From: an uncultured Massilimicrobiota sp.
Lineage (GTDB): Bacteria > Bacillota_I > Bacilli_A > Erysipelotrichales > Coprobacillaceae
DNA: 64,000 nucleotides
Assembly: GCA_944325245.1 (NCBI GenBank)
Contig: CALUZM010000004.1
Span: 1-64,000 of the forward strand
Reading direction: 5' to 3'
The position numbers were made by a program, and so were the translations under genes. A model generated the notes under the pieces. That model did not search any database. It was not told where the DNA came from and saw only the letters and a list, made by a program, of their open reading frames with translations. How positions within the stretch are numbered: position 1 is the stretch's first letter; every line of letters starts with the position of its first letter. Positions 17,885-58,874 of this stretch are shown here, piece by piece.

Positions 17885-19463
17885 AATAAGATTACAAGGT
17901 ATTTTATTAAGACAAACAACAAGTTCTAAGAAAAAAGGAAGTAGTGTTGGGAAATTTATTTTATATGGTTTATTGTTTGCTTATATAGGTGTTGTGTTTA
18001 TTGGTATGTTTGGTATGATGTTCTATACTGTGATAGAACCTCTTCAAATGATGGGTATTGAATGGCTCTATTTTGCTTTAATGGCTTTATTTATCGTTGT
18101 GTTTTGTTTTATTGGAAGTATCTTTTTAACGCACCATGAAATCTATGAAGCCAAAGATAATGAGTTATTACTCTCTATGCCAATCAAAAATAGAGATGTC
18201 TTATTAAGTCGAGTTTTTACAATTTTGATTTTAAATTATGTATACGAAACACTTATTGCTTTACCTGCATTTTATATTTATATCACAAATGTCGGTATGA
18301 ATTTGATTGAAATTCTTATGTTTATTGGTGTTTGTTTGACATTACCATTATTTGTATTAGCTATATCTTGTTTATTTAGCTGGATATTAGCACATGTGCT
18401 TGTAAAGATTCATCGTTTTAAAACAATAATCTCTGTTGTTTTATTTGTAGGAGCATTTGGTTTATATATGTATGCAGTGAATTCTATTCAAACATATATG
18501 ACATGGCTCTTAGAAAACGGAAAGACAATAGCAGAAGCTATTGAAAGTTCAATGTTTCCACTGTATCATTTGAGTCTGGCATTAAGTGAAGGCAATGTGA
18601 TAAGCTTTATCATTTATTTGTTATGTGCAGTGATTCCATTTGTGATTGCTATTTATATTCTTTCTGTTAATTTCATTAAAATGGCCACAACAAAACCTAA
18701 AGTCAAAAAGGCAATTTATAAAGCGAAACCAATGAAACAGAATTCTTTATTTAAAGCCTTAATTATAAGAGAAGTGAAACATTTTACATCTAATGCCATG
18801 GTTATGCTCAATGGAGCGATGGGAATTGTTTTATGTGTCATTGCAGCTGTCTTTATTCTTTTTTACAAGGATGAAGTTCATATGATTATAACGCAATTGC
18901 CTCAAATTAGAGAATTTGTAACACCAATTCTTTGCATAATTGTGATTGGAACATCATCATTAAATATGATTAGTGCTTCCTCTATATCATTAGAAGGTGA
19001 TCGTTTTTGGATTATCAAATCATTACCTATTGCATCTAAAGATATTTTAAATGCCAAATTAGCAATGCATTTCTTGTTATGCGTACCAGCAGGACTTTTA
19101 TTATCATTAGTTTTGATTTTTGTGACAGGAATAGGCTTGTTTGATAGTCTTATTGTATTAGTTGTTCCAATATTGTTTACATTATTAATTGATTTCTTAG
19201 GTTTAATTTTAAACTTATGGAGACCTAAGTTTGACTGGGTTAATGAGACAGTTTGTGTTAAACAAAGTTTACCAGTAACACTTACCATGTTTATTTCTAT
19301 GGGTATAGCTATTTTGTTAGTGATGGTTTATGCTATGTTATTAGTAGATATCATGTCTATTACAGTGTATATGTATAGTGTGATTGTTGCCGTTATTATC
19401 ATAGATGTTGTTCTCTATAACATGATTCATACCTGGGGTATACAACAATTTGAACGTATTTAA
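17865..19463 (+). CDS. ABC transporter permease (large, ABC-2-like)
   Basis: 532 residues, roughly twelve hydrophobic helices in two halves joined by a basic loop near residues 275-300 (KPKVKKAIYKAKPMKQ). It lacks a periplasmic MacB domain, so it is an ABC-2 type export permease. ATG 17865 is chosen since GGAGG at 17851 is 9 nt away; an in-frame ATG at 17835 has no ribosome site. Translationally coupled to the ATPase gene. Confidence 0.88.
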   Translation: MLKTLIKIRLQGILLRQTTSSKKKGSSVGKFILYGLLFAYIGVVFIGMFGMMFYTVIEPLQMMGIEWLYFALMALFIVVFCFIGSIFLTHHEIYEAKDNELLLSMPIKNRDVLLSRVFTILILNYVYETLIALPAFYIYITNVGMNLIEILMFIGVCLTLPLFVLAISCLFSWILAHVLVKIHRFKTIISVVLFVGAFGLYMYAVNSIQTYMTWLLENGKTIAEAIESSMFPLYHLSLALSEGNVISFIIYLLCAVIPFVIAIYILSVNFIKMATTKPKVKKAIYKAKPMKQNSLFKALIIREVKHFTSNAMVMLNGAMGIVLCVIAAVFILFYKDEVHMIITQLPQIREFVTPILCIIVIGTSSLNMISASSISLEGDRFWIIKSLPIASKDILNAKLAMHFLLCVPAGLLLSLVLIFVTGIGLFDSLIVLVVPILFTLLIDFLGLILNLWRPKFDWVNETVCVKQSLPVTLTMFISMGIAILLVMVYAMLLVDIMSITVYMYSVIVAVIIIDVVLYNMIHTWGIQQFERI

Positions 19464-19491
19464 AAGCTCTTTTGAATAAAAGAGCTTTTTA
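19462..19491 (+). terminator. terminator of the ABC operon
   Basis: Perfect stem AAAAGCTCTTTT/AAAAGAGCTTTT with loop GAAT. Confidence 0.85.
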
Positions 19492-19536
19492 CATATTTAT
19501 AATTAGTGTATAATAAGAAAAAGTGAGTGATGTCAT

Positions 19537-20328
19537 ATGTTTAATTTAATGATTATTTTATCGTCAATGATTAATAGTGAACCTTTTGGAAGTAATAATT
19601 ATAAAATTGCTAAATATATTATTGAAAACATAGAAGATTTAGAAGATTGTTCAGTATCCCAACTGGCCAAAAATTGCTATGTCTCTAATTCAAGTATTTC
19701 TAGATTTTGTAGAGATATAGGGATGAGTGATTTTAACGCACTTAAAAACCAAATTGCGAAATTTGGTGTCAGTCATGAAACAATGAAAGAAAAATATGAA
19801 TTTAAAGATTATGATTCCAATCAACCAATGAAATCTTATATAAAGAGTGTTATAGAAAACTTAAAACTTGTTTTGCTGAGTGTAGATGAAGAATCTATTC
19901 AAAAACTTGTCAAGGATATTTCACAATATCATAAAGTTGCGGCTTTTGGTTATCGTCAATCAGAGAATGTGGCTTTGAATTTACAATATGATTTACAGAC
20001 GAGTGGTAAACATATATTTACATGTATTAAATTTATAGAACAGGCGGAATATATGGAACATGCTAATCAGGATCATTTGATCATTATCTTTTCTGATACG
20101 GGTACTTATTTTGAGCGTGTTTTTGAACGTACAAAACCTTTTAAAAATGTAAAAACAAAACCTAAGATTTATATGATTACATCAAATCGAGATTTAAAGA
20201 TTCATTATGTAGATGAATACATTTATTATCATAGTCGTCATGATTATGCTAGTCATCCATATCCTTTGATGGTTATATCAGATGTTATATGTGTTGAATA
20301 TGCGCACATGAAAAAGATACCTCATTAA
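19537..20328 (+). CDS. RpiR/MurR-family transcriptional regulator
   Basis: 263 residues. N-terminal HTH of the RpiR type (about 1-75; SVSQLAKNCYVSNSSISRFCRDIG) followed by a SIS sugar-phosphate-binding domain (about 105-240; AAFGYRQSENVAL, LIIIFSDTGTY). Such proteins sense phosphosugars. It faces a PTS EIIC gene convergently and lies near a NagB-like enzyme, so it probably regulates these; inference from context. Confidence 0.85.
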   Translation: MFNLMIILSSMINSEPFGSNNYKIAKYIIENIEDLEDCSVSQLAKNCYVSNSSISRFCRDIGMSDFNALKNQIAKFGVSHETMKEKYEFKDYDSNQPMKSYIKSVIENLKLVLLSVDEESIQKLVKDISQYHKVAAFGYRQSENVALNLQYDLQTSGKHIFTCIKFIEQAEYMEHANQDHLIIIFSDTGTYFERVFERTKPFKNVKTKPKIYMITSNRDLKIHYVDEYIYYHSRHDYASHPYPLMVISDVICVEYAHMKKIPH

Positions 20329-20331
20329 TTT

Positions 20332-20370
20332 TAAGATGCTTTTGCCTTGATGAAGTATCTTTTTTTTACT
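20332..20370 (+). terminator. terminator after the RpiR gene
   Basis: Stem AAGATGCTT/AAGTATCTT with one G-T pair, then T7. Confidence 0.65.
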
Positions 20371-20419
20371 GATTATTGATGATAAATCATAGATGTGTGT
20401 GAGTTTATTCTCTATCTTC

Positions 20420-21784
20420 TTAATCAGTTGCTGTTTCTTCTTCTAATTTTTGTTTTTCTGTTAATTTAAAGAATGGATAATATAAAGCTATATCAATAAT
20501 GATTAAGACTATAACCATAATACCAGCTTTGATATCCATACATCCAAGAGCTGCTCCCAAAGGTGCAGGTGTTGTCCATGGTGTTTCAATAACTCCTTTT
20601 CCAACAATATGGAATGCCATACAGCTGTATGCAATGATGGAATTGACCACTGGAACAAAAATAAATGGGATCATCATTAATGGATTTAATACCATTGGTA
20701 ATCCAAAGATAATAGGTTCATTAATATTGAAAATAGCAGGACCAATAGATAATTTTCCAAGCGTTTTTAATTCAACAGATTTAGATCTTAGTAAAAGGAT
20801 ACATAGACCTAATGTTGAACCTCCACCACCCAAAGTAATAACATATGACCAGAATGGTTGTGTAAAGAAATGAACGATTGGTTCATTATTGGAAAAGGCA
20901 GTAATATTTTCAATAAGATACATATTCTGGAATGGTAATCTGATTGGTTGCGTAATACTTGCACCATGTAATCCAAAGAACCAGAATACTTGTGAAAGAA
21001 TAGTGATCAAGCAAATACCAACCAGTGAATCTAGTCCAGAAATAGCCGGAGCTAAAATTGTCATAATTGTACTTGGTAATAATTCTCCACTAAAACTTTG
21101 AATTCCTAAAGAGATTGCATAGAAAATAATGACACAAACAAATAATGGCATAATAGCATCAAATGAAGAAGCAATTGCAGGTGGAACACCTTCTGGCATC
21201 TTGAAACGAATGTCTTTCTTCAACATGAAATGCATAATCTCAACGCAGCCTATAGATACGAGAATAGCAGTAAATATTCCTTTGGCATCTAGATATGTGG
21301 TAGGAATATACATGCTTGCAGAAGCAAGTATCTCTTCAGCAGTGGTACCTTCAGTGATGGCTGATGCTGCAACAGCAGATATAGATGGTGCACTCACAAT
21401 TAAAAAAACAGCAGTTGATACAACAGCAGCGTTTAATGTTGGCATATCATATCTTTTAGCAAGATGATATGAAATTGAAAATGCGATGAAAAGTCCCATT
21501 AATGCCATTGTCATATTATATGGAACTTGGAGAGCTACTTTATAAGTTTGAGCCCAATTGTACCACCCCATTAACATATCAGTGAAAAATCCCCACTGAG
21601 GTAATGTATCTGGAGTAAATGGTGGTGTAGAAATAATTAAGCAAACACCGCCTAAAATAGATAGCGGGATAGCGACGACCATACCATCACGAATAGCACC
21701 AAGATGTCTTTGATTTCCAAGCTTTGTAGCGATAGGCATTAGTGTGCGTTCCGCTAAATCATTAAATTTTTCCATGATATTCAT
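20420..21784 (-). CDS. PTS EIIC permease, lactose/cellobiose family
   Basis: 454 residues, about ten membrane helices, beginning MNIMEKFNDLAERTLMPIA as in CelB-type EIIC subunits and containing the NINEPIIFGLP and FFGLHG motifs typical of this family. It imports a beta-glucoside or chitobiose-like sugar. No EIIA or EIIB gene is adjacent, so it must borrow them from elsewhere. ATG 21784 is chosen because AAGGAGG lies 7 nt upstream; the open frame continues further but without a ribosome site. Divergent from the NagB-like gene across a cre site. Confidence 0.9.
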   Translation of the reverse strand: MNIMEKFNDLAERTLMPIATKLGNQRHLGAIRDGMVVAIPLSILGGVCLIISTPPFTPDTLPQWGFFTDMLMGWYNWAQTYKVALQVPYNMTMALMGLFIAFSISYHLAKRYDMPTLNAAVVSTAVFLIVSAPSISAVAASAITEGTTAEEILASASMYIPTTYLDAKGIFTAILVSIGCVEIMHFMLKKDIRFKMPEGVPPAIASSFDAIMPLFVCVIIFYAISLGIQSFSGELLPSTIMTILAPAISGLDSLVGICLITILSQVFWFFGLHGASITQPIRLPFQNMYLIENITAFSNNEPIVHFFTQPFWSYVITLGGGGSTLGLCILLLRSKSVELKTLGKLSIGPAIFNINEPIIFGLPMVLNPLMMIPFIFVPVVNSIIAYSCMAFHIVGKGVIETPWTTPAPLGAALGCMDIKAGIMVIVLIIIDIALYYPFFKLTEKQKLEEETATD

Positions 21785-21917
21785 AGAATTTCCTCCTTTC
21801 TTAAAGCTATTATAGAGAGAGATTAAAAACGCAAACAATACAATTCCAAATAATAGAAAAAAATACCAAATTGTGGAAAAGTGTTGTTTTATAGAAAGTA
21901 ATATTATAAAATAACTA

Positions 21918-21931
21918 TTTAAGCGTTTACA
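21918..21931. promoter_or_regulatory. cre (CcpA) site in the divergent EIIC / NagB-like promoter region
   Basis: TTTAAGCGTTTACA matches the cre consensus TGWNANCGNTNWCA at all but one defined position and sits between the two divergent start regions, predicting glucose repression of both. Confidence 0.65.
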
Positions 21932-21970
21932 CAGGTGAGTATTATGATACAAAAAAATTATTAAATCATC

Positions 21971-21998
21971 TTGACAGAGCAAACTATACCTTTATAAT
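21971..21998 (+). promoter_or_regulatory. promoter of the NagB-like gene
   Basis: Consensus TTGACA, 16 nt, TATAAT. Confidence 0.8.
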
Positions 21999-22067
21999 GA
22001 AATGTGTGTGAGTTATATTCTCTTTCTATTGATGATAAACAAGAAAATGAAATCAAGGAGAAAGAGT

Positions 22068-22790
22068 ATGAAATTAATTATTGAAGAAAATGAACAAAAA
22101 ATGAGTGAAAGTGCAATGCACATTCTTTTAGGAGCAATGATGCAAGATAAACGCGTTAATATTTCATTAACAAGTGGTCGTTCTCCAAAAACTTTGTATC
22201 AGATGATGATTCCTGAAGTGAAAGATCAAGAGAAATTCAAAGATGTTGAATATTATCTTTTTGATGAAGCACCATACATCAATGAAGATAAACCTGGTCC
22301 AAACTGGACAGAAATGCAGGAATTATTCTTTAAGGATGCACATATCCCTGATGAAAAAATCCATATTACGACAATGGATAACTGGGAAACGTATGATCAG
22401 GAAATACGTGATGCAGGTGGCATTGATGTTATGCTTATTGGTTTAGGTTTTGATGGACATTTTTGTAGTAATTGTCCTAGGTGTACACCTATGGATAGTT
22501 ATACTTACAAGATGGATAGAAAAACAAAAAATGCTGTTAATCCAGGTTATCCAGAAAAACCAGATCTACCATATACATTAACTATGGGGCCAAAAAGTTT
22601 AATGCGTGTTAAACATTTGGTTATGATTGTTAATGGAAAGCACAAAGCAGAAATTTTAAAACAGGTACTAGATTCACCAATTACTGATGAATTACCTGCA
22701 ACAGTTTTAAAATTGCATCCAAACTTTACTGTTATTTGTGATAAAGATGCTGCATCTTTATTGAATATGGAAGATTATAAGAGACTTTAA
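22068..22790 (+). CDS. NagB/6-phosphogluconolactonase-family enzyme
   Basis: 240 residues. The fold is recognisable from SLTSGRSPKTLYQMM, YYLFDEAPY, MLIGLGFDGHFCSN and TLTMGPKSLMRVKHL. Canonical glucosamine-6-phosphate deaminase has GxGxDGHIAFNEP; here the same loop reads GFDGHFCSNCPRC, so it belongs to a divergent isomerase/deaminase subgroup like E. coli YieK. It likely acts on the sugar phosphate made by the neighbouring PTS. ATG 22068 follows AAGGAGAAAGAGT; the upstream in-frame ATG at 22002 lies close to the -10 box and is rejected. Confidence 0.8.
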   Translation: MKLIIEENEQKMSESAMHILLGAMMQDKRVNISLTSGRSPKTLYQMMIPEVKDQEKFKDVEYYLFDEAPYINEDKPGPNWTEMQELFFKDAHIPDEKIHITTMDNWETYDQEIRDAGGIDVMLIGLGFDGHFCSNCPRCTPMDSYTYKMDRKTKNAVNPGYPEKPDLPYTLTMGPKSLMRVKHLVMIVNGKHKAEILKQVLDSPITDELPATVLKLHPNFTVICDKDAASLLNMEDYKRL

Positions 22791-22820
22791 GATAGTGAAA
22801 TTTCACTATCTTTACTTTTT
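22791..22820 (+). terminator. terminator after the NagB-like gene
   Basis: Perfect 10-bp stem GATAGTGAAA/TTTCACTATC, then TTTACTTTTTT. Confidence 0.8.
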
Positions 22821-22838
22821 TAAGGAGTTTAGTAAGTT

Positions 22839-23429
22839 ATGTCAAAGAAAAAGAATAGAAATCAAAGGACGAAAAAGCATAAAATTTCTCAATATGATGT
22901 AATTCATGTGAGAATGAAACGCCTTTTTGCGATGATTATTGATTGGTATATTGCTCAAATGATTGCTGTTATACCAGTGACTTTTTATTTTCGCAGGGGC
23001 AATAGTTTAAAGCCAGAGATGTTTCAATTGGAAAATTATGATTTTCAGATAGGATTGTTTTTAGGAATATTTGGAATAGGAGTAGGTATATTGTATTATA
23101 TTGTGATTCCAATATGTTTATGGAGAGGACAGACTTTAGGTAAAAAAATTTGTAAAATAAGAATTGCTGATATTTCTGGTGGAAATGTCACACCATTAGC
23201 TATTGTCAAAAGAGAATTGATTGGATCAACATTTTTAGAAGGTGGAATCATTATTATAGCTGTATATATGCGACGTTTACTACCTTTATTTGGATTGTCA
23301 ATATTGGTTGATCCATGGAAATATCTTGCTTATGCATTAACGCTGGCGTCTATTATCTATGCATTTTTTCAACCATTATCACAATCATTTCATGATAAAC
23401 TAGCACATACTATTGTTATTGAAAAATAA
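22839..23429 (+). CDS. RDD-family membrane protein
   Basis: 196 residues. A very basic N-terminus (SKKKNRNQRTKKHK) precedes RDD-domain features: RLFAMIIDWYIAQ in helix 1, then RGQTLGKKICKIRI between helices 2 and 3, and a C-terminal QSFHDKLAHTIVI. Four or five helices. RDD proteins are poorly characterised; some are implicated in cation or compatible-solute transport. It marks the left border of the accessory island. Confidence 0.85.
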   Translation: MSKKKNRNQRTKKHKISQYDVIHVRMKRLFAMIIDWYIAQMIAVIPVTFYFRRGNSLKPEMFQLENYDFQIGLFLGIFGIGVGILYYIVIPICLWRGQTLGKKICKIRIADISGGNVTPLAIVKRELIGSTFLEGGIIIIAVYMRRLLPLFGLSILVDPWKYLAYALTLASIIYAFFQPLSQSFHDKLAHTIVIEK

Positions 23430-24269: not shown

Positions 24270-25835
24270 ATGAGTATTATTGTATTTATTATTTCAATTA
24301 TCTTTTTAGTATTTTTTATTATACTGATGTTTGATTTTATAAATAGTTTAATAAATGCTTTAGCTATTTATATTCAAGCTGTTATTGAAAATATTCATTT
24401 TATCAATTATGAGTGGGTGAATAAAGATGGTGAACCAGTAAAGAGAAATTACTTCTTTGGACCTTGCTATCAACAATTAAAAGATATTATAGAGGAAGGA
24501 CATTTACTCATGAATGAAGATAGAAAGGAAAGATTAAGAAAAATTGATGAAAAATCAGATTGCGATTCTTTCTTTGGATCAGTAAGATATATTGCTGGTT
24601 TTGCGATTGTTCCAGAAATGATATTTCTAGATCTTGCTTTGACTTTATTAATGATCTGTATTTTAGGAGGTTCATGTTTCATTATTCAAAGTCTTATATT
24701 TATACTCTATATGATTATGAGAATCATTGATCAATTTTATTATATCTTCAAAGATATAAATAATGATTGTCCACAATGTAAAAAACAATTTTTAATTCCT
24801 GCATATATTTGTCCGCATTGCCATAGGTTACATAAAAAACTTGTTCCTGGAATTTATGGAATATTACATCATAAATGTGAATGTGGCGAATTGCTACCTT
24901 CAACATTTTTTACAGGAAGAAATCATTTGGATGCATATTGCCCATATTGTGAAGAAAGATTACATGTGACAGGAACAAAATCGGTTCTTATTCAGCTTGT
25001 AGGAGCTCCTAATACAGGAAAAACTGTTTTTCTTGCAAGTTATTTCCATGAGTTTTTTGAGAAGATAAAACAAAATAAAAATATTACACATACAATGAAT
25101 CAACATGAAAAATCCCAATTCCAAGAATTAGAACAATATTTTCAAGGTTTATTGCCTGATGCAACAACAGATTTCAATTCAAAATTATATTCTTGTATTG
25201 TATCGGGAAATGGTATAGAGCCGCAAAGAAAATTTGGTATGTATGATATTGGTGGAGAAATATTTGGGTTTACAAATAACAGTCATGAAATAGTACAAGA
25301 GCAATTGAAATATTGTAATGGAATTATTTTGCTAATAGATCCTTTGTCTAGTTATTTATTTCGACAAGAATGTATAAATGATGGAATTGATATTAAAAAT
25401 TATTGTCAAATGGAAGGAGAAGAAGCGACAACAAACTTTATTAACTATTTAATATCCATAAATGCTTTACAGCTAAATAAAAAATCTCATAAACCATTAT
25501 CTATTGTTCTTACCAAAGCAGATATAAAAATCATAAAACAGAAGATAGGTCCAGCCAAAATCAAAGCTCTATATAGAAATAAATCTCATGCAGAGACTTA
25601 TGATCAGTTAAGAGATGAAATGATTATAGAATTTTTAAATGAATATGGTATGGGAAATATTGTTTCATTAATAGAAAATTATTTTACAAATGTACATTAT
25701 TTTTGTGTAAGTGCTATAGGACATGAACCTAATAGAGAAGTATTTCATCCATTTGGTATTCAAGAATGTGTAGAATGGATGATTAAAGAAACAGATTATC
25801 AATATTATAAGGCCATTAATAACAAGGAGGTCTAG
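24270..25835 (+). CDS. membrane-anchored zinc-ribbon P-loop GTPase
   Basis: 521 residues. A hydrophobic helix at about 3-25 and a pair at about 119-153 anchor it; residues about 168-232 form tandem zinc ribbons (CPQC, CPHC, CECG, CPYC). The GTPase domain follows: G1 GAPNTGKT at 245-252, G3 DIGGE, and G4 LTKADIK. The class looks like TRAFAC 'double-GTPase' (DO-GTPase) proteins associated with GAP1 in predicted conflict systems; that assignment is from memory. It heads the operon, 7 nt before the GrpE-like gene. The zinc ribbons and the second GTPase at 31757 suggest the two act as a pair, one at the membrane and one soluble. Confidence 0.7.
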   Translation: MSIIVFIISIIFLVFFIILMFDFINSLINALAIYIQAVIENIHFINYEWVNKDGEPVKRNYFFGPCYQQLKDIIEEGHLLMNEDRKERLRKIDEKSDCDSFFGSVRYIAGFAIVPEMIFLDLALTLLMICILGGSCFIIQSLIFILYMIMRIIDQFYYIFKDINNDCPQCKKQFLIPAYICPHCHRLHKKLVPGIYGILHHKCECGELLPSTFFTGRNHLDAYCPYCEERLHVTGTKSVLIQLVGAPNTGKTVFLASYFHEFFEKIKQNKNITHTMNQHEKSQFQELEQYFQGLLPDATTDFNSKLYSCIVSGNGIEPQRKFGMYDIGGEIFGFTNNSHEIVQEQLKYCNGIILLIDPLSSYLFRQECINDGIDIKNYCQMEGEEATTNFINYLISINALQLNKKSHKPLSIVLTKADIKIIKQKIGPAKIKALYRNKSHAETYDQLRDEMIIEFLNEYGMGNIVSLIENYFTNVHYFCVSAIGHEPNREVFHPFGIQECVEWMIKETDYQYYKAINNKEV

Positions 25836-25841: not shown

Positions 25842-26486
25842 ATGGTATTAAAAAAACAACTCAACACAATCTTTGATGAATTAAATGGAGAAGAACATAG
25901 AGAAGATACAAAAGAACAATTCAATCAAAACAATACAGAATTAAAGATACAAGATGACATTAGAGAAATGATAAAAGAACTTAAAGAACAACAAAAACAT
26001 CTTGATAAAAAACTGACACAGACATTAAAAGAAAATTCTCTTTTTCAACAACAAGTTCGTACAAACATGGCTAAAGATATAGAAACACTTCAAAAGGAAC
26101 TTCTTGGAGAAAGAATGGATCCCATTCTCAAATCACTATCAGTTATTTATATAGAATATCAAGAACTATTTAAAAATGTTGAAGATGAAACTATAAAAAT
26201 AAATATTCATCATTTATTTGAATCATTAGTTGAAATTCTAGAAGAATATGGTTGCATATTACAAACAAGTCAAGTAGGAGATAAACGATCTCCACATTTA
26301 TCTAAAATTAGAAAAGTAATCGATACATCTGATCCTAACTTACATAATACTGTTGCTTATAGCTATAATCCTAGCATCTCAAAAGGACGAAAAGTTTTAT
26401 ATTATGAATTTATTGATACATATCGTTATAAACAACAAAAAGAGATTATTATAGAAAATTTTAAAGGAGAAGATGCAAATGAATAA
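25842..26486 (+). CDS. GrpE-like nucleotide-exchange factor
   Basis: 214 residues. A long charged coiled coil (about 30-95) leads into a helical/beta segment, with LGERMDPILKSLSVIYIEYQ, EDETIKINIHHLFESLVEILEEYG and a final basic strand region. Layout and size agree with GrpE (coiled-coil dimerisation stalk, four-helix bundle, beta-wing), though the GrpE signature is weak. Its position immediately before an Hsp70 gene, which it overlaps, strongly supports the role. Ribosome site AAGGAGG. It is not the housekeeping GrpE, which normally sits with hrcA and dnaK. Confidence 0.6.
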   Translation: MVLKKQLNTIFDELNGEEHREDTKEQFNQNNTELKIQDDIREMIKELKEQQKHLDKKLTQTLKENSLFQQQVRTNMAKDIETLQKELLGERMDPILKSLSVIYIEYQELFKNVEDETIKINIHHLFESLVEILEEYGCILQTSQVGDKRSPHLSKIRKVIDTSDPNLHNTVAYSYNPSISKGRKVLYYEFIDTYRYKQQKEIIIENFKGEDANE

Positions 26487-28635
26487 ATTGCCAGTAATAG
26501 CAATAGATTTAGGAACTACAAATTGTTTAACTGCTATATATGATCAAAATGCTCATCAACCAAGTATTATTAAGAACAAAAATGGAAATAAGATAACACC
26601 CTCAATCATTCAATTTGATGGTGAAAATATTATTATTGGAGATGAAGCAAAAGAAGCATATGAAGCTGGCGATGTAGGCTGTGTAACTGCTTTTAAACGA
26701 TATATGGGTTCATCATCATGTTGTGCTTATATTGGTAATAAAGAATATACAGCTGTTGAACTAACAACTCTTTTATTGAAATATCTAAAAGATAATGTAG
26801 AAACTGTTTTGCAACAACCCATTTATGAAGTTATTATTACAGTTCCTGCTTACTTTCGTCATAAGGAAAGACAAGCAACATTGCAAGCAGCTAAAAATGC
26901 TGGTTTAAAAGTAAAAATGTTAATTAATGAGCCTACAGCTGCAGCTTTAAACTATGGAATACAACATTTTAGAAAAAATGCAAAAATACTTGTTTATGAC
27001 TTAGGTGGTGGGACATTTGATGTGACTCTTATAGAGATGAGTAAAGAAAATCAAATCAATTGTCTCATAACAAAAGGAAATCATATCTTAGGTGGGAAAG
27101 ATTTTGATAAATGTATTTTTAACTATTTAGTGAATCAAATCTATTATGATACAGGAATTGATATCAAAGAATACTCTGGATTTATCAATGAATTAATGGG
27201 GCGTATTGAACATATTAAAATGACTCTTACCAATGCATCTAAAGTAAAAATCAAGCTTAATATTCCGAACTATGGAGTATATCGAACAGAATTGACAAAT
27301 CAGGAATTTGAAAACATAACGTCTCATCTTTTAGATAAAACAGGTGTTTTGTGCCAAGATGTGTTAGATGAATTGCATTATACATGGAATGATATCACAG
27401 ATATATTACTTGTTGGCGGCTCTACAAGAATGCCTCAAGTATCTAAATATTTAGAGAAAATCAGTGGACACAAACCAATAACACAAGTCCATCCAGATGA
27501 AGCAGTCGTTTTAGGAGCAGCTATTCAATCTATATTACCGGCTCCAAAATATAATGTTTTATCTGCTTCTTCAAAACCAATCGCAAATAAAAATGCAATA
27601 GTGCAAAAGGAAAAACCAGTAACAAGTGTTTCAGCTATGAGATTAAATGATGTTCAAGCACACCCTTTAGGAATGATTGCAGTCAATGAAGAAGGAACTC
27701 ATTATATTAATCAAAATATTATTCCTCCTAATCAATCCATTCCTGTGAAATGTGCAAGAAAGTTTAAATATTATACATCAGCTCAAAAAAATAATGAGAT
27801 AGATATTTATTTATTACAAGGGATAGGAAATATTTTTGATTGTGAAATTTTAAATAAATATGTCATTTCTGGTATTAGACATAAAGAGGAAGGTTCCACA
27901 CTTATCAGAGTTCAATATAGCTATGATGTGAGTGGTATTGTTCATATTCAAGCAAGACAAGAACAAGATGAGTGTGATCTTCCTATTAGAGAAGAACCAG
28001 TTCCTAAAGATATGAGCATGTTTGCTAAACCAATAACTCAAAATCCTGATAATCAAACAACATATGTTTTTGAAATATTAGATACTTCAGGATCAATGTT
28101 TGGAGAACCTATTGAAGAGGCAAAGAAAGCAATGATTGAATTTATTGATAAACTCAAAGGAGATCATGTTTATATTGGATCTATGTCAGTTTCTAATAGA
28201 ACAATCATTACTGGAAATCTCACAAATCATCCTTTAGAAGCAAAACAAGGCATAAAGAAATTATATTGCGGGTTAGGTGGATTTGGCAATTGTACACATC
28301 CTTTTGATACTGTTTATAAAAACATGCATGCTTTAAAAGGGAGAAGAATTGCTATTATATTAGCTGATGGTGTCTGGTCATATTTAGAGGCTGCAAAAAA
28401 GGCTGCTAAAAGATGTATTCAAGATGGTATAGAAATTATTGCAATAGGTTTTGGAGATGCTGATTATGATTTTTTAAGATCTATTTCTTCTAGTGATAAA
28501 AATGCAATGAAAGTGCATCAATCTCAATTAGTGAAATCATTTGGCAATATTGCACAAACGATTAGTGAAACATCTCATTCTAAATTTAATAACAATGAAG
28601 AGACAAAAACCTGGGAAGCGATAGGAGAAAAATAG
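26479..28635 (+). CDS. Hsp70-like ATPase fused to a C-terminal von Willebrand A domain
   Basis: 718 residues. Residues 1-370 are an Hsp70 nucleotide-binding domain: IDLGTTNCL (phosphate 1), YDLGGGTFDV (phosphate 2), INEPTAAALNYG, and LLVGGSTRMPQ (adenosine). About 380-520 resembles the beta substrate-binding domain. Instead of the helical lid there is a vWA domain at about 530-700 with a complete metal (MIDAS) site: DTSGS at 535-539, Thr606, and Asp630 in LADG. ATG 26479 is preferred to 26473 because the GGAG is 9 nt away. The fusion suggests an Hsp70 that engages a specific ligand through its vWA module. Confidence 0.88.
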   Translation: MNKLPVIAIDLGTTNCLTAIYDQNAHQPSIIKNKNGNKITPSIIQFDGENIIIGDEAKEAYEAGDVGCVTAFKRYMGSSSCCAYIGNKEYTAVELTTLLLKYLKDNVETVLQQPIYEVIITVPAYFRHKERQATLQAAKNAGLKVKMLINEPTAAALNYGIQHFRKNAKILVYDLGGGTFDVTLIEMSKENQINCLITKGNHILGGKDFDKCIFNYLVNQIYYDTGIDIKEYSGFINELMGRIEHIKMTLTNASKVKIKLNIPNYGVYRTELTNQEFENITSHLLDKTGVLCQDVLDELHYTWNDITDILLVGGSTRMPQVSKYLEKISGHKPITQVHPDEAVVLGAAIQSILPAPKYNVLSASSKPIANKNAIVQKEKPVTSVSAMRLNDVQAHPLGMIAVNEEGTHYINQNIIPPNQSIPVKCARKFKYYTSAQKNNEIDIYLLQGIGNIFDCEILNKYVISGIRHKEEGSTLIRVQYSYDVSGIVHIQARQEQDECDLPIREEPVPKDMSMFAKPITQNPDNQTTYVFEILDTSGSMFGEPIEEAKKAMIEFIDKLKGDHVYIGSMSVSNRTIITGNLTNHPLEAKQGIKKLYCGLGGFGNCTHPFDTVYKNMHALKGRRIAIILADGVWSYLEAAKKAAKRCIQDGIEIIAIGFGDADYDFLRSISSSDKNAMKVHQSQLVKSFGNIAQTISETSHSKFNNNEETKTWEAIGEK

Positions 28636-28650: not shown

Positions 28651-31600
28651 ATGTCTAGAAAAAATTATTATGAAATTTTAACATCGCTTCATTTTGATAA
28701 TAAGATGGATACAGATATAAAAGTCAAAGAAGCGATTGCTACATGGAAAGAAAACATAACTCTTAACTATAACAAAGAAACGGACCCTGTAATCAAAGAT
28801 AATATTAAGCAAGAAATGGAATTAGAAATGGATATGAAAAGAGTTATGTTGGATGCGAAACTTAGAAAAAATGAAGCTTTACAAATGAAGGCAATCAAGC
28901 TTAAAGAATTAGAAAGCTATATAGAAATATTAAAAATGAATAGAGGGAATGAATCCCTCTTTATCACAAATGCAAGATTAAGATCAATTGTTCATGATTT
29001 TCGTTTAACATCACAAACAGTTATTCAACAACTCAAGAAAAATAAAATTGAAATTGTTACTCCTCAACAGACAATCAAATATAATGATTTATTTCTAGAT
29101 AAAGTTCATGAAGACGAACTCAGTCAGAACATTATTCAAGCAAATCAGAGAAGTATTCTTCAAAGAATAGGCTGGTTATCTCCATTCACAAATTTATATG
29201 AATTTTTAGCTTGTTATGATAATCATCCAAATATAAACTATCAAAATCGTCATAGAGAAGATTTATTAGCAATTGCTTCGAAAGGTTCATTGGAATATGC
29301 GACAGATAACTCTCTAGAAGGGCACTTGATTCAAAATATCTTTTCTACAGCTAAAAATAACATTTTTAATAATTCTATCAATACACAAAAATATAACAAT
29401 TCTTTAAAATTAGAGAGTTTATCTGAACTTTTTAAATTATTAGCTAATATCTCAGTAGAAATGAAGAAAGATGAAATATTTGCTGAGAATGTTATAAAAA
29501 AAATCAGAAAAGAATTTCCTGATTATGAAATAGCAAGAGCTATCTATAATTATAAATCAGGACTTTTAAAAGACCCTTATGAAAAACATGATTTTTCTAT
29601 TGAGATGTATTGTCATAATTGTCATTCATTAGAAACATTCTCTACACTACAAGAAGCGAAAAGATCAAACTGTAAAGTATGTGGAGAACCTCTATTTATA
29701 AAATGTCCAAATTGTGGAAAACTGATTCCTTCTTCCAGCGAGCAATGTCAATTCTGTCATTTCTCATGTCAGGAAGCGTCATATTTTGATTTATATTATC
29801 AATTATCTTTACAGGCATTAGAAGATATGAATTTTAGTGAAGCAAAAAAGATGATGATAAAGGCGAAAATTGCTAATCCAAAAGAAGAAAGAGTAAAAGT
29901 TCTAGAAAAGAAAATTCAATCCCAAATAACAAAATTCAAATTTCCATTAGATAAATTAAATCATCTTATACAAGAAAAGAAATATATAGAAGCATCAAAA
30001 TATATTTATGAATTAAAGATAAAATATCCTCAACTCCATCTAAAAAAAGAAGAAGAGTTGATTTTAAAGACATTAGAAAATATAAGATATAAATTTTCTC
30101 ATAAAAGTTTTCAAAAATATGAGGGTGCTAACACATGTGTGGAAATTTTACGTGAAGTGAAAGATTACACTCCAGCAAAAGAATATTTGATAACAGTGCC
30201 CCCACATCCTTCACGCTCTTTTCAAGCTCATTATATACAGTCTCAAAAGGGTGTTGTCCTTGATTTTCAACCAGTCACAGATTTAGGTGTGAAATACGTC
30301 ATTATTCGAAAAGAAAATGAAGAACCTAAGAATATCAATGATGGTAAAAAAATATTTTCTAGTCAATCAACATTAGAATACATAGATACAAGTGTTGAAT
30401 CAGGAATTCAGTATTTTTATGCATTATTTGTTAAAAGAGGTTCAACAATATCTTCCCCAATGACAACAAGTATTATTGTTTGTCGTGATATAGATATTAA
30501 TACGTTTCATTGCTTTGAAGATTCTCATCAGTGTTCTTTTAGCTGGAGACTTCCTAAAAATGCAAAAGGAGTCAGAGTATTGAGAAGTGAGCGAAATGTA
30601 TCTTTTAAGCCAGATAAATATACCAAAGAAGTTGCCAATAATATGATTCAATATTATGAAGATCATGATGTGATAAATGGAAAGATTTATGAATATCGTT
30701 TACAGGTTATCTATTATATCAATAACGCTATACATTATAGTCGAGGTATTGTTAAACAAATGATGCCAAATGCTATTGCATTAAAAACAGTTATACAAAA
30801 TGCAACATATTTAAATGGTGAAATCACATTGACATTATCATCGCAAGATAATTATGTACAAATTCTTGCATTAAAAAAAGATTTTGTTAAAGAAGATACA
30901 GTCTTAGATAGTAGTACGCTTCATCAATATGGTGTTGTTTTAACAACTGTAAAGGGGCAAACAGAAGTTAAAATCAGAGTCCCTAAAAATAAAGTATATA
31001 ACCTCACAGCTGTTACTATTTCAGGTTTAAAAGCTATTGCTGGAAATGTTGTGAGTATATCATCATACGAAAAGTATGAAATTGATAAATTAAAAACAAA
31101 GATTAATAACTCAAGATTATATATTCATATTAAAGAACCATTAAACAATGATGTCACTAATTTTTATTATTCAGTATGTACCAAAAAATCTTCCAATGAG
31201 AAACCACCATTTTTAACTCGAGAAGATATTCATAAAATGAATAAAATATCTTTCAATACATATCAAAAAGACGGGGCAATTATTGTAGAACATATATCAG
31301 AAAAAGAACTTTATATAACAGTGATTGCCCAAATGAGAAATGGTAAACAAATCTTTTATACTGAACCATCTAAATATCGTATAAATAATAGTCCTAAAAA
31401 AATCATTCAGTATGATATTTCATGGGGAGGAATATTTAAAAATAAAAAAGAAAAAGCAATTTTAAAAATTAATTGTTTTGATTGTCAGGATGAATTGCCC
31501 GAATTATATCTTGTAGGAAGTAAATCTGGAGCAGTTCCAACGGGATATAGAGGAAATGATATTCTCACAATTTGTCATCTTCCTTCATCTCAGCAATCTT

Positions 31601-31743
31601 CTCAACAGATTCTATTATCTATGGATCGTTTAAAACTATTACCCAATCAAGCAAAATTACGTTTATATATGAATAAAGAAGATCAAGAAGAATTTGAAGC
31701 TCAACCAGTTTCGGTTAAGAACTTAATAGTACCAATAAAATAG
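28651..31743 (+). CDS. large J-like / zinc-ribbon / FN3-like scaffold protein
   Basis: 1030 residues, no signal peptide. The start, KNYYEIL, and the following 100 charged helical residues look like a J-domain, but the HPD tripeptide that activates Hsp70 is absent. Middle: helical region, then two zinc ribbons at about 319-375 (CHNC, CKVC, CPNC, CQFC), then TPR-like helices. From about 520 to the end are repeated beta-sandwich (fibronectin III-like) segments. The order resembles a co-chaperone that links an Hsp70 to a client. Family not confirmed; the C-terminal domain assignment is inference from strand pattern. Confidence 0.6.
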   Translation: MSRKNYYEILTSLHFDNKMDTDIKVKEAIATWKENITLNYNKETDPVIKDNIKQEMELEMDMKRVMLDAKLRKNEALQMKAIKLKELESYIEILKMNRGNESLFITNARLRSIVHDFRLTSQTVIQQLKKNKIEIVTPQQTIKYNDLFLDKVHEDELSQNIIQANQRSILQRIGWLSPFTNLYEFLACYDNHPNINYQNRHREDLLAIASKGSLEYATDNSLEGHLIQNIFSTAKNNIFNNSINTQKYNNSLKLESLSELFKLLANISVEMKKDEIFAENVIKKIRKEFPDYEIARAIYNYKSGLLKDPYEKHDFSIEMYCHNCHSLETFSTLQEAKRSNCKVCGEPLFIKCPNCGKLIPSSSEQCQFCHFSCQEASYFDLYYQLSLQALEDMNFSEAKKMMIKAKIANPKEERVKVLEKKIQSQITKFKFPLDKLNHLIQEKKYIEASKYIYELKIKYPQLHLKKEEELILKTLENIRYKFSHKSFQKYEGANTCVEILREVKDYTPAKEYLITVPPHPSRSFQAHYIQSQKGVVLDFQPVTDLGVKYVIIRKENEEPKNINDGKKIFSSQSTLEYIDTSVESGIQYFYALFVKRGSTISSPMTTSIIVCRDIDINTFHCFEDSHQCSFSWRLPKNAKGVRVLRSERNVSFKPDKYTKEVANNMIQYYEDHDVINGKIYEYRLQVIYYINNAIHYSRGIVKQMMPNAIALKTVIQNATYLNGEITLTLSSQDNYVQILALKKDFVKEDTVLDSSTLHQYGVVLTTVKGQTEVKIRVPKNKVYNLTAVTISGLKAIAGNVVSISSYEKYEIDKLKTKINNSRLYIHIKEPLNNDVTNFYYSVCTKKSSNEKPPFLTREDIHKMNKISFNTYQKDGAIIVEHISEKELYITVIAQMRNGKQIFYTEPSKYRINNSPKKIIQYDISWGGIFKNKKEKAILKINCFDCQDELPELYLVGSKSGAVPTGYRGNDILTICHLPSSQQSSQQILLSMDRLKLLPNQAKLRLYMNKEDQEEFEAQPVSVKNLIVPIK

Positions 31744-31756: not shown

Positions 31757-32854
31757 ATGTCTCATATATTATGCCCATACTGTGCATCAAAAATTACACC
31801 TTCGAATGTGAAATATGAGTGTTTAAGTTGTGGAAAAGAAATTAAAATTTCAGCACTTGAATCAATGATGAAAATGATGCCAAAGTGTAAAAATGAAAAA
31901 TGCACAAAAGATAGAAATGTTGTTATAAAATGTAGAAAATGTGATTCATATTTACCACCAGATATTTTTCAATATAAAGGCTATCTCCCTTTTTCTCTGG
32001 TAGGTATTAGTGGAGCAGGGAAAACAAATTTTATCACGGTGTTATTGGAAGAGTTGAGAAGAAGTGGAATCATGTCCGTTTCTCATATGAACAAAGAAAC
32101 TATTGAAAGATTTAAAACGGAAAGAGACCGTATATATTATGAACATATTCCTTGTGATGCGACACCTAGAGGAGATATACTTCCCTATCAATGGAGAATA
32201 CAAAAAAAAGTTTCTAACTCTAAGATAGATTCATATTGTATGACTATTTTTGATGGAGCAGGAGAAGATTATGAATGTGTAGATGAGAAAATTCTTTTAT
32301 ATATAGCTGCATCTCAATATATTGTTTTTCTAGTTGACCCAACTGCTTTATTACATGTAAGAAGAAGCATTTCTAATAAAGATTCGCTTGAATGGTCTTC
32401 TGCATCTCAGTTTTATAATGATTATCAAAAAAATGAGGATTCACAAGAACTTGTTCAAGATATGGCTGCTTATATTAGAAAAGCAAGACATATTAAAGTA
32501 GGACGTTCTATAGATACACCCGTTGCCATCTGTTTTACAAAAATTGATTTATTACTGGATCAATTTGGACAGCAAACAATTACTAGACCAAGTCCACATG
32601 TAAAAAATCAAGGCTATAAAAGTGAGGATGGGGCCCTTGTAGATCAGGAAATAAGAGATTATTTAAAAAGAATTGGGGAACAAAGTTTTCTAAATGCTGT
32701 AGATACAAACTTTAAAAACGTTCAATTTTTTGGTGTTAGTAGTTTTGGGAATTCACCCATTGGTCAGAAATCTCTTGGTTCAATAGAACCGCATAGAGTT
32801 CTTGATCCACTTATGTGGATATTATCAAAAGAAGGAATTGTTCCAAAATTATAA
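31757..32854 (+). CDS. soluble zinc-ribbon GTPase (second of the pair)
   Basis: 365 residues. Residues 5-60 contain zinc ribbons (CPYC, CLSCG, CRKC); G1 is GISGAGKT at 83-90, G3 FDGAGED, G4 FTKIDLL. No membrane helix. Strand GYLPFSLVGISGAG and helix NFITVLLEELR are typical of the DO-GTPase2-like group that accompanies GAP1 (family recalled). Thirteen nt separate it from the next gene, with strong GGAGG. Confidence 0.75.
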   Translation: MSHILCPYCASKITPSNVKYECLSCGKEIKISALESMMKMMPKCKNEKCTKDRNVVIKCRKCDSYLPPDIFQYKGYLPFSLVGISGAGKTNFITVLLEELRRSGIMSVSHMNKETIERFKTERDRIYYEHIPCDATPRGDILPYQWRIQKKVSNSKIDSYCMTIFDGAGEDYECVDEKILLYIAASQYIVFLVDPTALLHVRRSISNKDSLEWSSASQFYNDYQKNEDSQELVQDMAAYIRKARHIKVGRSIDTPVAICFTKIDLLLDQFGQQTITRPSPHVKNQGYKSEDGALVDQEIRDYLKRIGEQSFLNAVDTNFKNVQFFGVSSFGNSPIGQKSLGSIEPHRVLDPLMWILSKEGIVPKL

Positions 32855-32867: not shown

Positions 32868-35576
32868 ATGTTTAATCAAATTGTGTATACAAGATGTGTA
32901 CCATGCCGAGATCTATTTGATAATGGAAAAATAAGAAATCAGGAAGGTTATGCGATTAGAACATTTAGTCCAGAAATTTATAATGATTGCGATATAAATG
33001 AATTAGAAAAAATTCAGAAATATATGAAGACAAGAAATGAATCTAAGACAGGTATAAAAGTAGGTTTGATTGATTCTTTTGAATATTTTCCTTTGAATTA
33101 TTCCTATGTTATAGGATATGAGCATCAAATTAGTAAAGCACGTCGTACAACGTATGTTAAACATTATTATGTAGGTGATATTCAAGAATATCCTATTCAC
33201 TATTTAAATGATGACTTGTTTAGTTATTGTTACAAAGAAGAAAAAGACTTTATAGGAGAAAATGAAACATTAGAATTTGCGCCTGTCGTGGATTTTACAC
33301 CAACTGTATTTTTCACAAAAGAAGCTGCTGCTCATTTTTATCAAGATGGTAGACAAGATGCAATAGAATCTTGTATTAGTTTTCTTGTTGAACAATATAA
33401 GCTTCCAATACAAGAAAGACAATTCTTAATTATTAAAGATACACCAGAAAATGTATTGAAATGGATTGTATGCATTGAATATGCCTTGCCTTTAGAACTT
33501 GCCAAAATGATTTCATTTTCTACAAATACCAATATAGCTCAAACAACTCCAAGATCATATCGCTATTATACAGATGACCAGAATAACTTTTATGAAAATA
33601 ACTTAAAGGGAGATACAAATCTGATTCAAAATTATTACTTTATGATTGCTGGTATACATCCTGAAGGAAGTCATGCTCATGACTTCCAACCAATGCCAAA
33701 TGCGCCTTATGTCATTGTGGATGGGGTAAAAAAACAAGCAGAATTTGAAATTGCCAAAAATCTAAGCTATCTTCGATTAGCATGTCAATATAATCAAGAT
33801 TTTGAAGATTTTCAAACAATTTTAAAAGATTGCCAAAATTATTCATACCAGACTTTATATGATTTGTTTGATGCTTATATGTATATATTAGATGATAAGC
33901 AAGATATTTCAAAATGGGAGTATACAAAGTTATTAAAATCTATGCAATGTTTTTCAAAGTTTCTAATCTCAGGTAGTAAAACAGAAAAGATGTTGGTTGA
34001 TTTTATCTATGGTGAATATACCAGCCATAAGCGTATTTGGCTTCATGATGAACAAAACAATCTTCAAATTATAAAATTATTAATTCAATTCATTGATGAT
34101 CTTCAAGATAAACAATATAAAGAACATTTACATAATTTCGTTTTTCAAATGATAACTTATATTATGAATACAAAATATTTTACTAAAGAAAAAGCTATGA
34201 TGTATTGGCAGATGATAAATACAAACAAAGAATTATCTACATACATCTATTATGAATTCTTTAATGAACAAAGAATAGATAGTGAATATATGAATCAATA
34301 CTGCATAGAAGATTTAGATTATTTAGTATTCTTTATTCAATTATTTAATCATTATTTAGAAGGTTTCCATTTGGATGTATCTTTATTAAAAAAACATCCT
34401 AAATGGAATACATTATTAAGTCATTTGTATGCAACATTATTAGAACTTGAAGATCATCAAGAATTATATGCAATGGATAAATTAATTGAAAATTATGACA
34501 ATGATCTTATGAATTTTTTTACCATCCAATATGCTAAAAAATATGGTTCAAAACATAATATCACAAAAAAATGGGTGACATTTTATGGAAAATGTATTTC
34601 AGGAGATTTAAAGAATCAATGTCAAACAATGCTATTATCTGGTATTGATACAAGCATAGTAGAAATATTATTAGTCAATTACTTAGAAAATAAAAAGATA
34701 TTAGATCAAGATTTATTTTATTCATTTATGTTGTTATACAAAAATTTACAAGGTCATGATGATGAATTTGGAGATATATTTTTTAGAAAATATATTGAAA
34801 TTGCTTTATTACAAACACATCCATATAACAGTATTAAAGATTTCATTGATTTTATTATTGATTATCAATTTCCTAGTCAAATCAAGCATCTTTTATTAGA
34901 TAAAGTTGATGCAATTATTCATCCTGTTGTTAAAGATATAAATGAATTAAAGTTTATTGAATATCTCGTTAATCTACAAGTTGATTATTTCTTGCCACAT
35001 GTTTCAAAAGCACAGTTTTATATAAAAATCACTCACCAAGTGAAACAAGCAAAACAGTTGGATGAAGAACTAGGTGAACAATGTTTAGCTCCATTTCTTG
35101 TTGAAACAAAGGAGGATTTAGAATTTGTATATGAGATTATAGAACCCTGTTGCATATTTATGGAAACGCCTGAAATGATTTATAAATTATTAAATATCTT
35201 TAAATTTCATAATCCCATAGAGTTCTATCGCTATGTGCAAACTGTTTTGATATATCTTATTAGAAAATCATATAAAAATAAATATCTTCTTAAGATAGTT
35301 TTAGAATTTCTAGGAGGTCAGGTTGATGATAAAAAAAGTAGTTATTATTCATATGAAGATATGGAAAAAGCTTTTCATTTAGAATTATATGAAGAATTAT
35401 CAAAAAATTATCATGAAAAGACTTGGGAAGGAATGATTGATTTACTTGATGGTTCATTAAAAGGAACAATTATGAAATTAAATGAATCAGTTCAAAAAAA
35501 TTATGAACTCAAATATCAAAGAAAGTCTCAAAAATTATTAAAAACTTTAAAATCTAAATTCAAAAAGGAGAGATAG
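32868..35576 (+). CDS. GAP1-like GTPase-associated protein
   Basis: 902 residues. It begins FNQIVYTRC and contains GYAIRTFSPEI, the same start as GTPase-associated protein 1 N-terminal domains (GAP1-N; usually Q-x-Y-Y-T-S/R-C and Gly-x-x-x-Arg-x-x-SP). Residues about 30-240 look like that beta-rich domain; the rest (about 300-880) is entirely alpha-helical, as in GAP1-M/C. GAP1 proteins occur beside double-GTPases in predicted bacterial conflict systems. The start ATG 32868 has AAGGAGGT 8 nt upstream; the ORF is open to 32802 within the preceding gene. Confidence 0.65.
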   Translation: MFNQIVYTRCVPCRDLFDNGKIRNQEGYAIRTFSPEIYNDCDINELEKIQKYMKTRNESKTGIKVGLIDSFEYFPLNYSYVIGYEHQISKARRTTYVKHYYVGDIQEYPIHYLNDDLFSYCYKEEKDFIGENETLEFAPVVDFTPTVFFTKEAAAHFYQDGRQDAIESCISFLVEQYKLPIQERQFLIIKDTPENVLKWIVCIEYALPLELAKMISFSTNTNIAQTTPRSYRYYTDDQNNFYENNLKGDTNLIQNYYFMIAGIHPEGSHAHDFQPMPNAPYVIVDGVKKQAEFEIAKNLSYLRLACQYNQDFEDFQTILKDCQNYSYQTLYDLFDAYMYILDDKQDISKWEYTKLLKSMQCFSKFLISGSKTEKMLVDFIYGEYTSHKRIWLHDEQNNLQIIKLLIQFIDDLQDKQYKEHLHNFVFQMITYIMNTKYFTKEKAMMYWQMINTNKELSTYIYYEFFNEQRIDSEYMNQYCIEDLDYLVFFIQLFNHYLEGFHLDVSLLKKHPKWNTLLSHLYATLLELEDHQELYAMDKLIENYDNDLMNFFTIQYAKKYGSKHNITKKWVTFYGKCISGDLKNQCQTMLLSGIDTSIVEILLVNYLENKKILDQDLFYSFMLLYKNLQGHDDEFGDIFFRKYIEIALLQTHPYNSIKDFIDFIIDYQFPSQIKHLLLDKVDAIIHPVVKDINELKFIEYLVNLQVDYFLPHVSKAQFYIKITHQVKQAKQLDEELGEQCLAPFLVETKEDLEFVYEIIEPCCIFMETPEMIYKLLNIFKFHNPIEFYRYVQTVLIYLIRKSYKNKYLLKIVLEFLGGQVDDKKSSYYSYEDMEKAFHLELYEELSKNYHEKTWEGMIDLLDGSLKGTIMKLNESVQKNYELKYQRKSQKLLKTLKSKFKKER

Positions 35577-38800: not shown

Positions 38801-39277
38801 AATTCTAAATCAACATTATTACCAATAAGTAAACAAAAAGAAATCATGAATTATCTTCATGCTTTCTTTGAAAATAATACTATAAATATAAAAAAGAAAA
38901 ATGACAAAGTATTAAAAACTGAATTAATAGGTTTTATCTATTATTTTTTAAAACTTCAAAGCTTCTTTAAAGTTGTGACACTTTCAGAAGTCAATACAAA
39001 GCCAAGTCAAAGAGAACTCAATCAAAAAGAAAAAATAGCAAGTTTAAGATGGTTTAATAAATTAAAAGATTTATTAGGACAATATATTGTTATGCCAGAA
39101 TCTGTGAATCCTGATAAATACATATGGCCTCATAACCCTGAAGATGCTATGTACTATTTAGATATACTAAGAGAATTGATTTATTATTATGGACTAATAT
39201 GTATCCAAGAAAAAAGTGATTATTCATATTTAAATGCTTTAGACTATCTAGATAAAATAGGGGTATTTTCTCAATAA
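35864..39277 (+). CDS. HerA/DUF87-type hexameric ATPase with Ser/Gly-rich insert
   Basis: 1137 residues. The HerA-FtsK fold lies at about 550-930: Walker A GAPGAGKS at 576-583, followed by VIEPVKGEYK, Walker B VLEEAHN with acids near 808, and the conserved RSFGEGFVIIDQSP segment. N-terminal part about 95-290 is beta-rich; residues about 275-350 form a Ser/Gly/His-rich insert (GIGHSTAHSIS, SGSNFSFVNLGFGSG). The C-terminal 170 residues are helical. Such ATPases pump DNA or unfold proteins, and many DUF87 proteins work in anti-phage systems. Last gene of the core operon. Confidence 0.85.
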   Translation: MSIVDGKFQQRENIKPKTQRSQKSQEEQTKQLLMTQKRLEGLKDSLQLLDIFINNEHMEILSPANKKDLYESQVIQLENSKKNRSQNISICRLDKIMYNVNEDNFEKLVSVYLAMYGFGGIVGLIIQSDGQSIQFYLCTNTDQNQEIAGQLLQSNINGQFPGCTLTTLNSFEKEKLLDSFSNDLKDDSKAIVKSLSIIPGRRQQEQEKGRVLTSQGFEKFIETMNGKSYTLLILAQKVSPQTMDLAKSGYENMYTSLSPYAKEQVSFAQSEADTLNFVMSQGIGHSTAHSISSAYGSAHTLSISKGRTKNSGSNFSFVNLGFGSGSAYNEGFYKGDSQDQHEVTGDVEGYVENINKSKGEGKTFTQTKTMTISKNHKSVIEMLEKLDALIKRIETSQIFGMWNSACYVVTKEASTASIATSTLTSLLAGDNKSSTHAYINEWNNTHLEDRNRILENLGHLYHPEIELTMYKEDENHQKTFLLDEFGKPVATQILTPALMVSGKEIPIMLSLPGNSVPGIVVDHMAEFGRNVSQQWIEEIDSSKKIEFGNIYHMGKEDNQKTVLNLDTFASHCFICGAPGAGKSNTAYNLLYEMIRRHIPFLVIEPVKGEYKIEFGALKNINILTAAQSEDTLLQINPFEFHPRIHIREHLDKLISTISACWPLYGTMPGLLKQAFERVYIEHGWDLENSKRIIEKGSKFPTFRDLETALDDIIENSTYSRQSKSDYKGALLNRVSSLNNGFESQIFGNSIGISDKILFDSYTIIDLSSIGSEETKSLIMGILIIRLQEYRKATRDNPNASLKHVTVLEEAHNILKKCSQDTNIETGNMQGQSVKMLCNCIAEMRSFGEGFVIIDQSPSSIDETAIKNTAIKIVMRLPDKYDCEVMAAALSLEDNQMRELSRLDIGVGAIYHVGWTNTILAKMGKVWDKKCLGNKKIEPYNKNSYIQISGAIVQLLYYKIHTKDFYDLKEETIDLLKLLSNSKSTLLPISKQKEIMNYLHAFFENNTINIKKKNDKVLKTELIGFIYYFLKLQSFFKVVTLSEVNTKPSQRELNQKEKIASLRWFNKLKDLLGQYIVMPESVNPDKYIWPHNPEDAMYYLDILRELIYYYGLICIQEKSDYSYLNALDYLDKIGVFSQ

Positions 39278-39423
39278 TAATCATTTTGAGTTTCATATAA
39301 AAACATATATGATTGACAATAGAAAATCAATATAAAAAGACGTGTAGAAATCTTTCTTAATTAAGAAGCTATCTCATGGTAAGAGAAAATAAATATATTA
39401 AGTATCTTTAAAAAATAAGTTTG

Positions 39424-39546
39424 ATGAATAAATCTATTGAAGAAAATAAGAAATATGTTTTTTTAGGAGCATTTGTTTATCAGGAATTTAATGAATGTTT
39501 AATGTTTCTATCAAAAGAGGAGGGTAGAGATTATATTGATTTTTAA
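39424..39546 (+). CDS. possible small or decayed ORF between operon and transglutaminase
   Basis: 40 residues: NKSIEENKKYVFLGAFVYQ then FNECLMFLSKEEGRDYIDF and a TAA; the frame then continues as EVLWDSDDEIKEAF before another stop at 39589. This suggests a single larger protein interrupted by one stop, but no family was recognised. The rest of 39278-39618 holds only a TTAATTAA dyad and a TTGACA without a -10. Confidence 0.3.
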   Translation: MNKSIEENKKYVFLGAFVYQEFNECLMFLSKEEGRDYIDF

Positions 39547-39618
39547 GAAGTTCTTTGGGATAGTGATGATGAAATAAAAGAGGCTTTTTAAAAAATGGAA
39601 AGGAGAAGTATTTTACGT

Positions 39619-58871: not shown

Positions 58872-58874
58872 TGA

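Follow-up and report, generated by a model that had tools for sequence, protein, structure and literature searches.

An Hsp70 carrying a von Willebrand A domain in the place of its lid, encoded in a putative DO-GTPase/GAP1 conflict-system operon of Massilimicrobiota

In the window, the 64,000-nucleotide stretch analyzed here from a contig of an uncultured gut bacterium of the genus Massilimicrobiota, we identified a gene on the forward strand (positions 26479 to 28635, with an alternative ATG at 26473) whose open frame encodes a 718-amino-acid Hsp70 with a von Willebrand A (vWA) domain where the helical lid would be. With confidence that is about evenly balanced, we read this fusion as the chaperone switch of a DO-GTPase/GAP1 conflict system (GAP1-N2-like, HSP70 theme), probably an anti-invader machine. 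The reading draws on operon content and order, tight gene spacing, components shared with two other genomes, and the match to a theme described by Kaur et al., as well as on intact catalytic residues, changes at the position of DnaK R167, and the pattern of identity among the fusion's domains. All features described below lie on the same strand.

The first-pass annotation had proposed an Hsp70 ATPase domain, a beta domain, and a vWA domain in one open reading frame, and Pfam searches bore this out: HSP70 matched at E = 3e-104, above its cut-off, and VWA matched residues 533 to 684 at E = 1.4e-14 (55 bits against a cut-off of 23.8), with the best match among the orthologues at 1.8e-20. In a PDB sequence search, the ATPase part (residues 1 to 352; 26479 to 27534) aligned with DnaK structures, and the substrate-binding beta domain (SBD-beta) of DnaK in chain 2v7y aligned with residues 412 to 494. 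The catalytic positions D8, T11, K70, E171, D194, T199, and D201 of DnaK are all kept (7/7) in each of the three Hsp70-vWA proteins compared; the positions of the E. coli DnaK reference in this alignment were checked by their motifs. Behind the nucleotide-binding domain (NBD), comparison of the fusions delimited a variable insert ahead of the interdomain linker (27535 to 27630), followed by SBD-beta (residues about 385 to 507; 27631 to 27999) and the vWA domain (residues about 527 to 697; 28057 to 28569). Pfam and an AlphaFold2 model both place the vWA directly after SBD-beta, and the helical lid (SBD-alpha) is absent, so the proposed replacement of the lid stands. Structure prediction, suggested earlier as a check on the vWA fold, gave a model of low confidence (mean pLDDT only 57.7, from a 3-row alignment). 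In it, the strands of SBD-beta are followed at residues 528 to 697 by strands and helices that alternate as in a vWA fold. The matches listed by Foldseek for the whole model were Hsp70 structures, and assignment of the vWA fold is therefore based on Pfam and predicted secondary structure. How the vWA sits on SBD-beta is beyond the reach of such a model.

Alignment with the orthologues indicated that the MIDAS of the window copy, which had been described as intact, is only partly so. The DxSxS motif is present as DTSGS (residues 535 to 539; 28081 to 28095), and D535, S537, S539, and D630 (28366 to 28368) are kept in the three-sequence alignment. Thr606, previously named as the MIDAS Thr, aligns with Ala and is ruled out; the true position is occupied by N604 (28288 to 28290). 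Both orthologues have Thr there (GCGT), completing DxSxS...T...D. With Asn at this site in the window copy, the earlier suggestion of metal-dependent action is not supported.

The Hsp70-vWA fusion is real but rare. The search for such fusions that had been proposed found the identical type in Massilimicrobiota timonensis An13 (G002) and in an Erysipelotrichaceae MAG (G272), at 57% and 55% identity to the window protein, respectively, which rules out an assembly artefact or chance open reading frame. No further fusion was detected in 40 relatives, in 316 genomes sampled from the order, or in overlapping samples of 395 genomes from the class and 392 from the phylum. Contig scans with narrow patterns recovered only the same two carriers, and the viral contigs, plasmids, and phages searched contained no Hsp70-vWA fusion. 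No report of a vWA in place of an Hsp70 lid emerged when the literature was searched under the name of the fusion; combined with the changed J-contact residues described below, the fusion looks like an unreported variant. Among the three fusions, identity was 73 to 84% in SBD-beta, 61 to 76% in the NBD, and 39 to 58% in the vWA, making SBD-beta the slowest-evolving domain and the vWA the fastest. In these three sequences, the pattern hints that SBD-beta may meet a fixed partner and the vWA a changing one; the divergence of the vWA may instead reflect relaxed constraint and not ligand diversification. Because a slow SBD-beta and a fast vWA fit a fixed beta-domain partner with variable recognition by the vWA equally well, the claim that the vWA sets client choice is not favored by these data.

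Ordinarily, the Hsp70 cycle is coupled to J-proteins and the lid. In two Hsp70s of this operon, both appear to have been dismantled while the ATPase was kept, and in one of the two a fast-evolving vWA occupies the lid position; this would make the use of Hsp70 as a conflict-system switch open to test in a concrete case. Arg167 of DnaK, which is important for J-domain action (PMC7289447), corresponds to Met147 in the window fusion (26917 to 26919). All three fusions have Met here, and all four copies of a second Hsp70 encoded in the same operons have Asp or Asn; each of the 30 other Hsp70 sequences in the comparison (one a duplicate) has Arg. The hydrophobic linker run VLLL has become [MI]R[LV][NK] in the fusions, the further J-contact positions E217 and K414 are altered in all three, and pocket residues differ. 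No J-type HPD motif was detected in the operon proteins, the sole HPD string lying within Hsp70 itself. These substitutions suggest that the fusion Hsp70 may have lost its dependence on J-proteins, and several of its features suggest a departure from ordinary DnaJ-driven chaperone work.

It had also been asked whether such fusions always sit with GrpE-like and J-like genes. Directly upstream, with an 8-nt overlap, lies a candidate GrpE-like nucleotide exchange factor (25842 to 26486). Pfam GrpE did not match this protein; in hhalign against 15 GrpEs it scored 31.7 (P = 2.7e-4; best of 60 column shuffles, 25.2), and the DPNLH...V motif is kept. The gene downstream of the fusion (28651 to 31743) encodes a helical N terminus, zinc ribbons detected by Pfam in homologues, and FNIII-like repeats, for which the one Fn3 match (in one of four homologues) was weak, at E = 0.0033. 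Its YYEIL stretch and the order of its helices are J-like, but it has no HPD motif and no Pfam J match. Its hhalign score of 11.9 fell within the shuffled range, and the Foldseek matches listed included no J-domain; we therefore regard this protein as J-like at most. A different operon, in genome G091 (L054:7571-11702), encodes a 566-aa Hsp70 with Arg167 kept, a protein of GrpE-like size, and a TPR protein that is J-like, ends in a SEC-C-type segment, and has no HPD at the expected place.

The same evidence bears on a first alternative, that the fusion is a specialized client-binding Hsp70 in which the vWA would dock one client to the beta domain for folding or holding, working with the ordinary DnaJ of the genome. 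The strongly conserved SBD-beta, the intact ATPase residues, and the overlapping GrpE-like gene speak for it. Nevertheless, we consider this unlikely, given the changes at Arg167, E217, K414, and the linker in all three fusions, the differing pocket residues, and the lack of an HPD partner within the operon.

The chaperone-switch reading takes in the whole operon. Six core genes, encoding GTPase 1, the GrpE-like protein, Hsp70-vWA, the FNIII-like protein, GTPase 2, and GAP1, are separated by 6, -8, 15, 13, and 13 nt. GTPase 1 (24270 to 25835) is a zinc-ribbon DO-GTPase with hydrophobic N-terminal segments, CxxC clusters, the P-loop GAPNTGKT, and TKAD (Pfam DO-GTPase1, E = 2e-6, 27.7 bits against a cut-off of 27). 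GTPase 2 (31757 to 32854), also a zinc-ribbon DO-GTPase, matched DO-GTPase2 (E = 2e-6, 28.0 bits against 27). GTPase-associated protein 1 (GAP1; 32868 to 35576) was recognized through GAP1-M, which matched all three GAP1 orthologues (best E = 9e-7), the window copy falling below the cut-off (E = 1.3e-3, 19.3 against 24); no Pfam GAP1-N model, including GAP1-N2, matched the protein. Then follow a HerA/FtsK-like ATPase (35864 to 39277; Pfam DUF87, E = 2.5e-10; P-loop GAPGAGKS at residue 576), a transglutaminase-core protein present in all three operons (39595 to 40725; Transglut_core, E = 1.6e-9), and the second Hsp70 (41155 to 42798), which has an SBD-beta-like part, no lid, and intact active-site residues, the seven catalytic positions being unchanged in all four copies. 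Operon components are shared with G002 and G272. A TPR-CHAT putative protease (43067 to 47287; CHAT, E = 1.9e-33) adjoins the operon; it is 1406 aa long and contains about 20 highly similar TPR units. No tRNA was found in the window, and promoter and terminator scans gave chance-level results. The G272 operon (L056:174-6197 and L053:7202-8824) has two tandem FNIII-like genes and two second-Hsp70 copies.

Since each of the three operons encodes two lidless Hsp70 types, the second duplicated in G272, we also weighed an ATP-dependent scaffold or filament-type component, in which these Hsp70s would be assembly subunits and the vWA an oligomer contact. Kaur et al. suggested a role of this kind, in multimers, for the HSP70 and tubulin of such systems (PMC7159879). 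The fusion also resembles MreB (Pfam, E = 3e-17), but this similarity reflects only the common actin-like fold, and we judge the scaffold reading rather unlikely.

For the chaperone-switch reading, a putative defense role is suggested by the surroundings of the operons. In G002 and G272, two genes follow HerA, one for a DNA/RNA non-specific endonuclease (Pfam, E = 2e-33) and one for a YezG-like immunity protein. The nuclease gene was not found in the window's own genome by a search run without a positive control, and the syntenic slot (39388 to 39582) contains a probable relic of the immunity gene, recognized by a weak tblastn match with stop codons inside it (28.6% over 70 aa, E = 0.014). The window copy may therefore be effector-less or work with another effector. 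That it is a decaying remnant with no current function, its effector lost along with the MIDAS Thr, would accord with the missing nuclease, the immunity relic, and N604, but is improbable given that all large operon genes are full-length open frames with catalytic and P-loop motifs intact. HerA homologues on plasmids of E. coli, Treponema, and Lactococcus (L064, L065, and L066) lie in dynamin-dynamin-HerA-nuclease clusters, with an HNH-type nuclease and then an immunity-like or uncharacterized gene, which suggests that HerA, nuclease, and immunity form a module borrowed by different GTPase systems.

The operon also occupies variable chromosomal sites: in G002, only 76 bp separate the matches to window positions 19458 to 23429 and 58279 to 61569, and the operon of G002 lies elsewhere on that contig, so that the two congeners carry it at different places. 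AbiLi/AbiLii-type genes lie directly beside the G002 operon (L040:4714-6715; PADLOC E = 6e-72 and 6e-15). About 35 kb of the window (23430 to 58278) is missing from the collinear position of G002, and part of a surface-protein gene within this stretch (52239 to 58133) is found at another position in that genome.

Taken as the chaperone switch of such a system, the fusion would use ATP to switch assembly or conformation and would not serve general protein folding. A partner that does not vary would be bound within the machine by the conserved SBD-beta, and a protein ligand that does vary would be recognized by the fast-evolving vWA in the place of the lid. Nucleotide exchange would fall to the GrpE-like protein, and sensing and threshold setting to the two GTPases, GAP1, and the FNIII-like/zinc-ribbon protein. 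The HerA ATPase would deliver the output, joined in the two relatives by the nuclease that an immunity protein guards. Counted against this reading are PADLOC matches limited to generic HerA models or weak ones, the lack of GAP1-N2 and FNIII domains above Pfam cut-offs in the window, the low-confidence model, the missing nuclease, and the possibly relaxed constraint on the vWA. A more specific version, in which a J-protein- and lid-free Hsp70 whose ATP cycle is gated by a vWA ligand forms the sensor-switch of an immune machine with HerA/nuclease output, is speculative and on balance doubtful.

Compared with known chaperones, the fusion is like DnaK in its SBD-beta and in an NBD with every catalytic residue and unlike it in the missing lid, the altered linker and J-contact residues, and the added vWA. 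Among immune operons, type III CoCoNuT systems also encode an Hsp70 NBD/SBD, in CnuD (PMC11090510). There, vWA genes lie elsewhere in the operons, and the Hsp70 part of CnuD is linked to McrB/McrC homologues and carries Walker A-like motifs that are degenerate. In the window protein, the vWA is fused to Hsp70 and the ATPase is intact. MoxR-vWA systems (VMAP and other ternary systems) likewise place an NTPase and a vWA in a conflict-system operon, as described by Kaur et al. (PMC7159879). In contrast to these, no MoxR or VMAP gene was recognized in our operon, and the vWA is fused to Hsp70; the one strong match to MoxR in this genome lies on another contig. The absence of MoxR agrees with the first-pass proposal that Hsp70 takes its place as the ATPase; GTPase systems with HSP70 in MoxR's stead had, however, already been described.

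The operon most closely resembles the GAP1-N2 DO-GTPase conflict systems of Kaur et al. (2020; PMC7159879) in their HSP70 theme. This theme comprises HSP70 and GrpE, with DnaJ typically on an FNIII protein, and DO-GTPases of the TRAFAC clade, often in two copies with zinc ribbons and with GAP1 downstream. The window operon appears to match it, the N2 type being assigned by operon theme only: it encodes two zinc-ribbon DO-GTPases (one with N-terminal hydrophobic segments), GAP1, HSP70 with a GrpE-like protein, a second HSP70, and an FNIII-like protein. It differs in that no J-domain could be detected on the FNIII-like protein, the second HSP70 retains a part resembling SBD-beta where that of Kaur et al. 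is described without a peptide-binding domain, and transglutaminase, HerA, and nuclease/immunity genes are attached to the operons. The main difference is the vWA in place of the lid; the text passages of Kaur et al. considered here assign vWA domains to other themes and do not mention an HSP70-vWA fusion. As HSP70 in GTPase conflict systems is already on record there, what is new is the vWA fusion, by which two regulatory ideas of conflict systems, HSP70 and vWA, come together in a single polypeptide.
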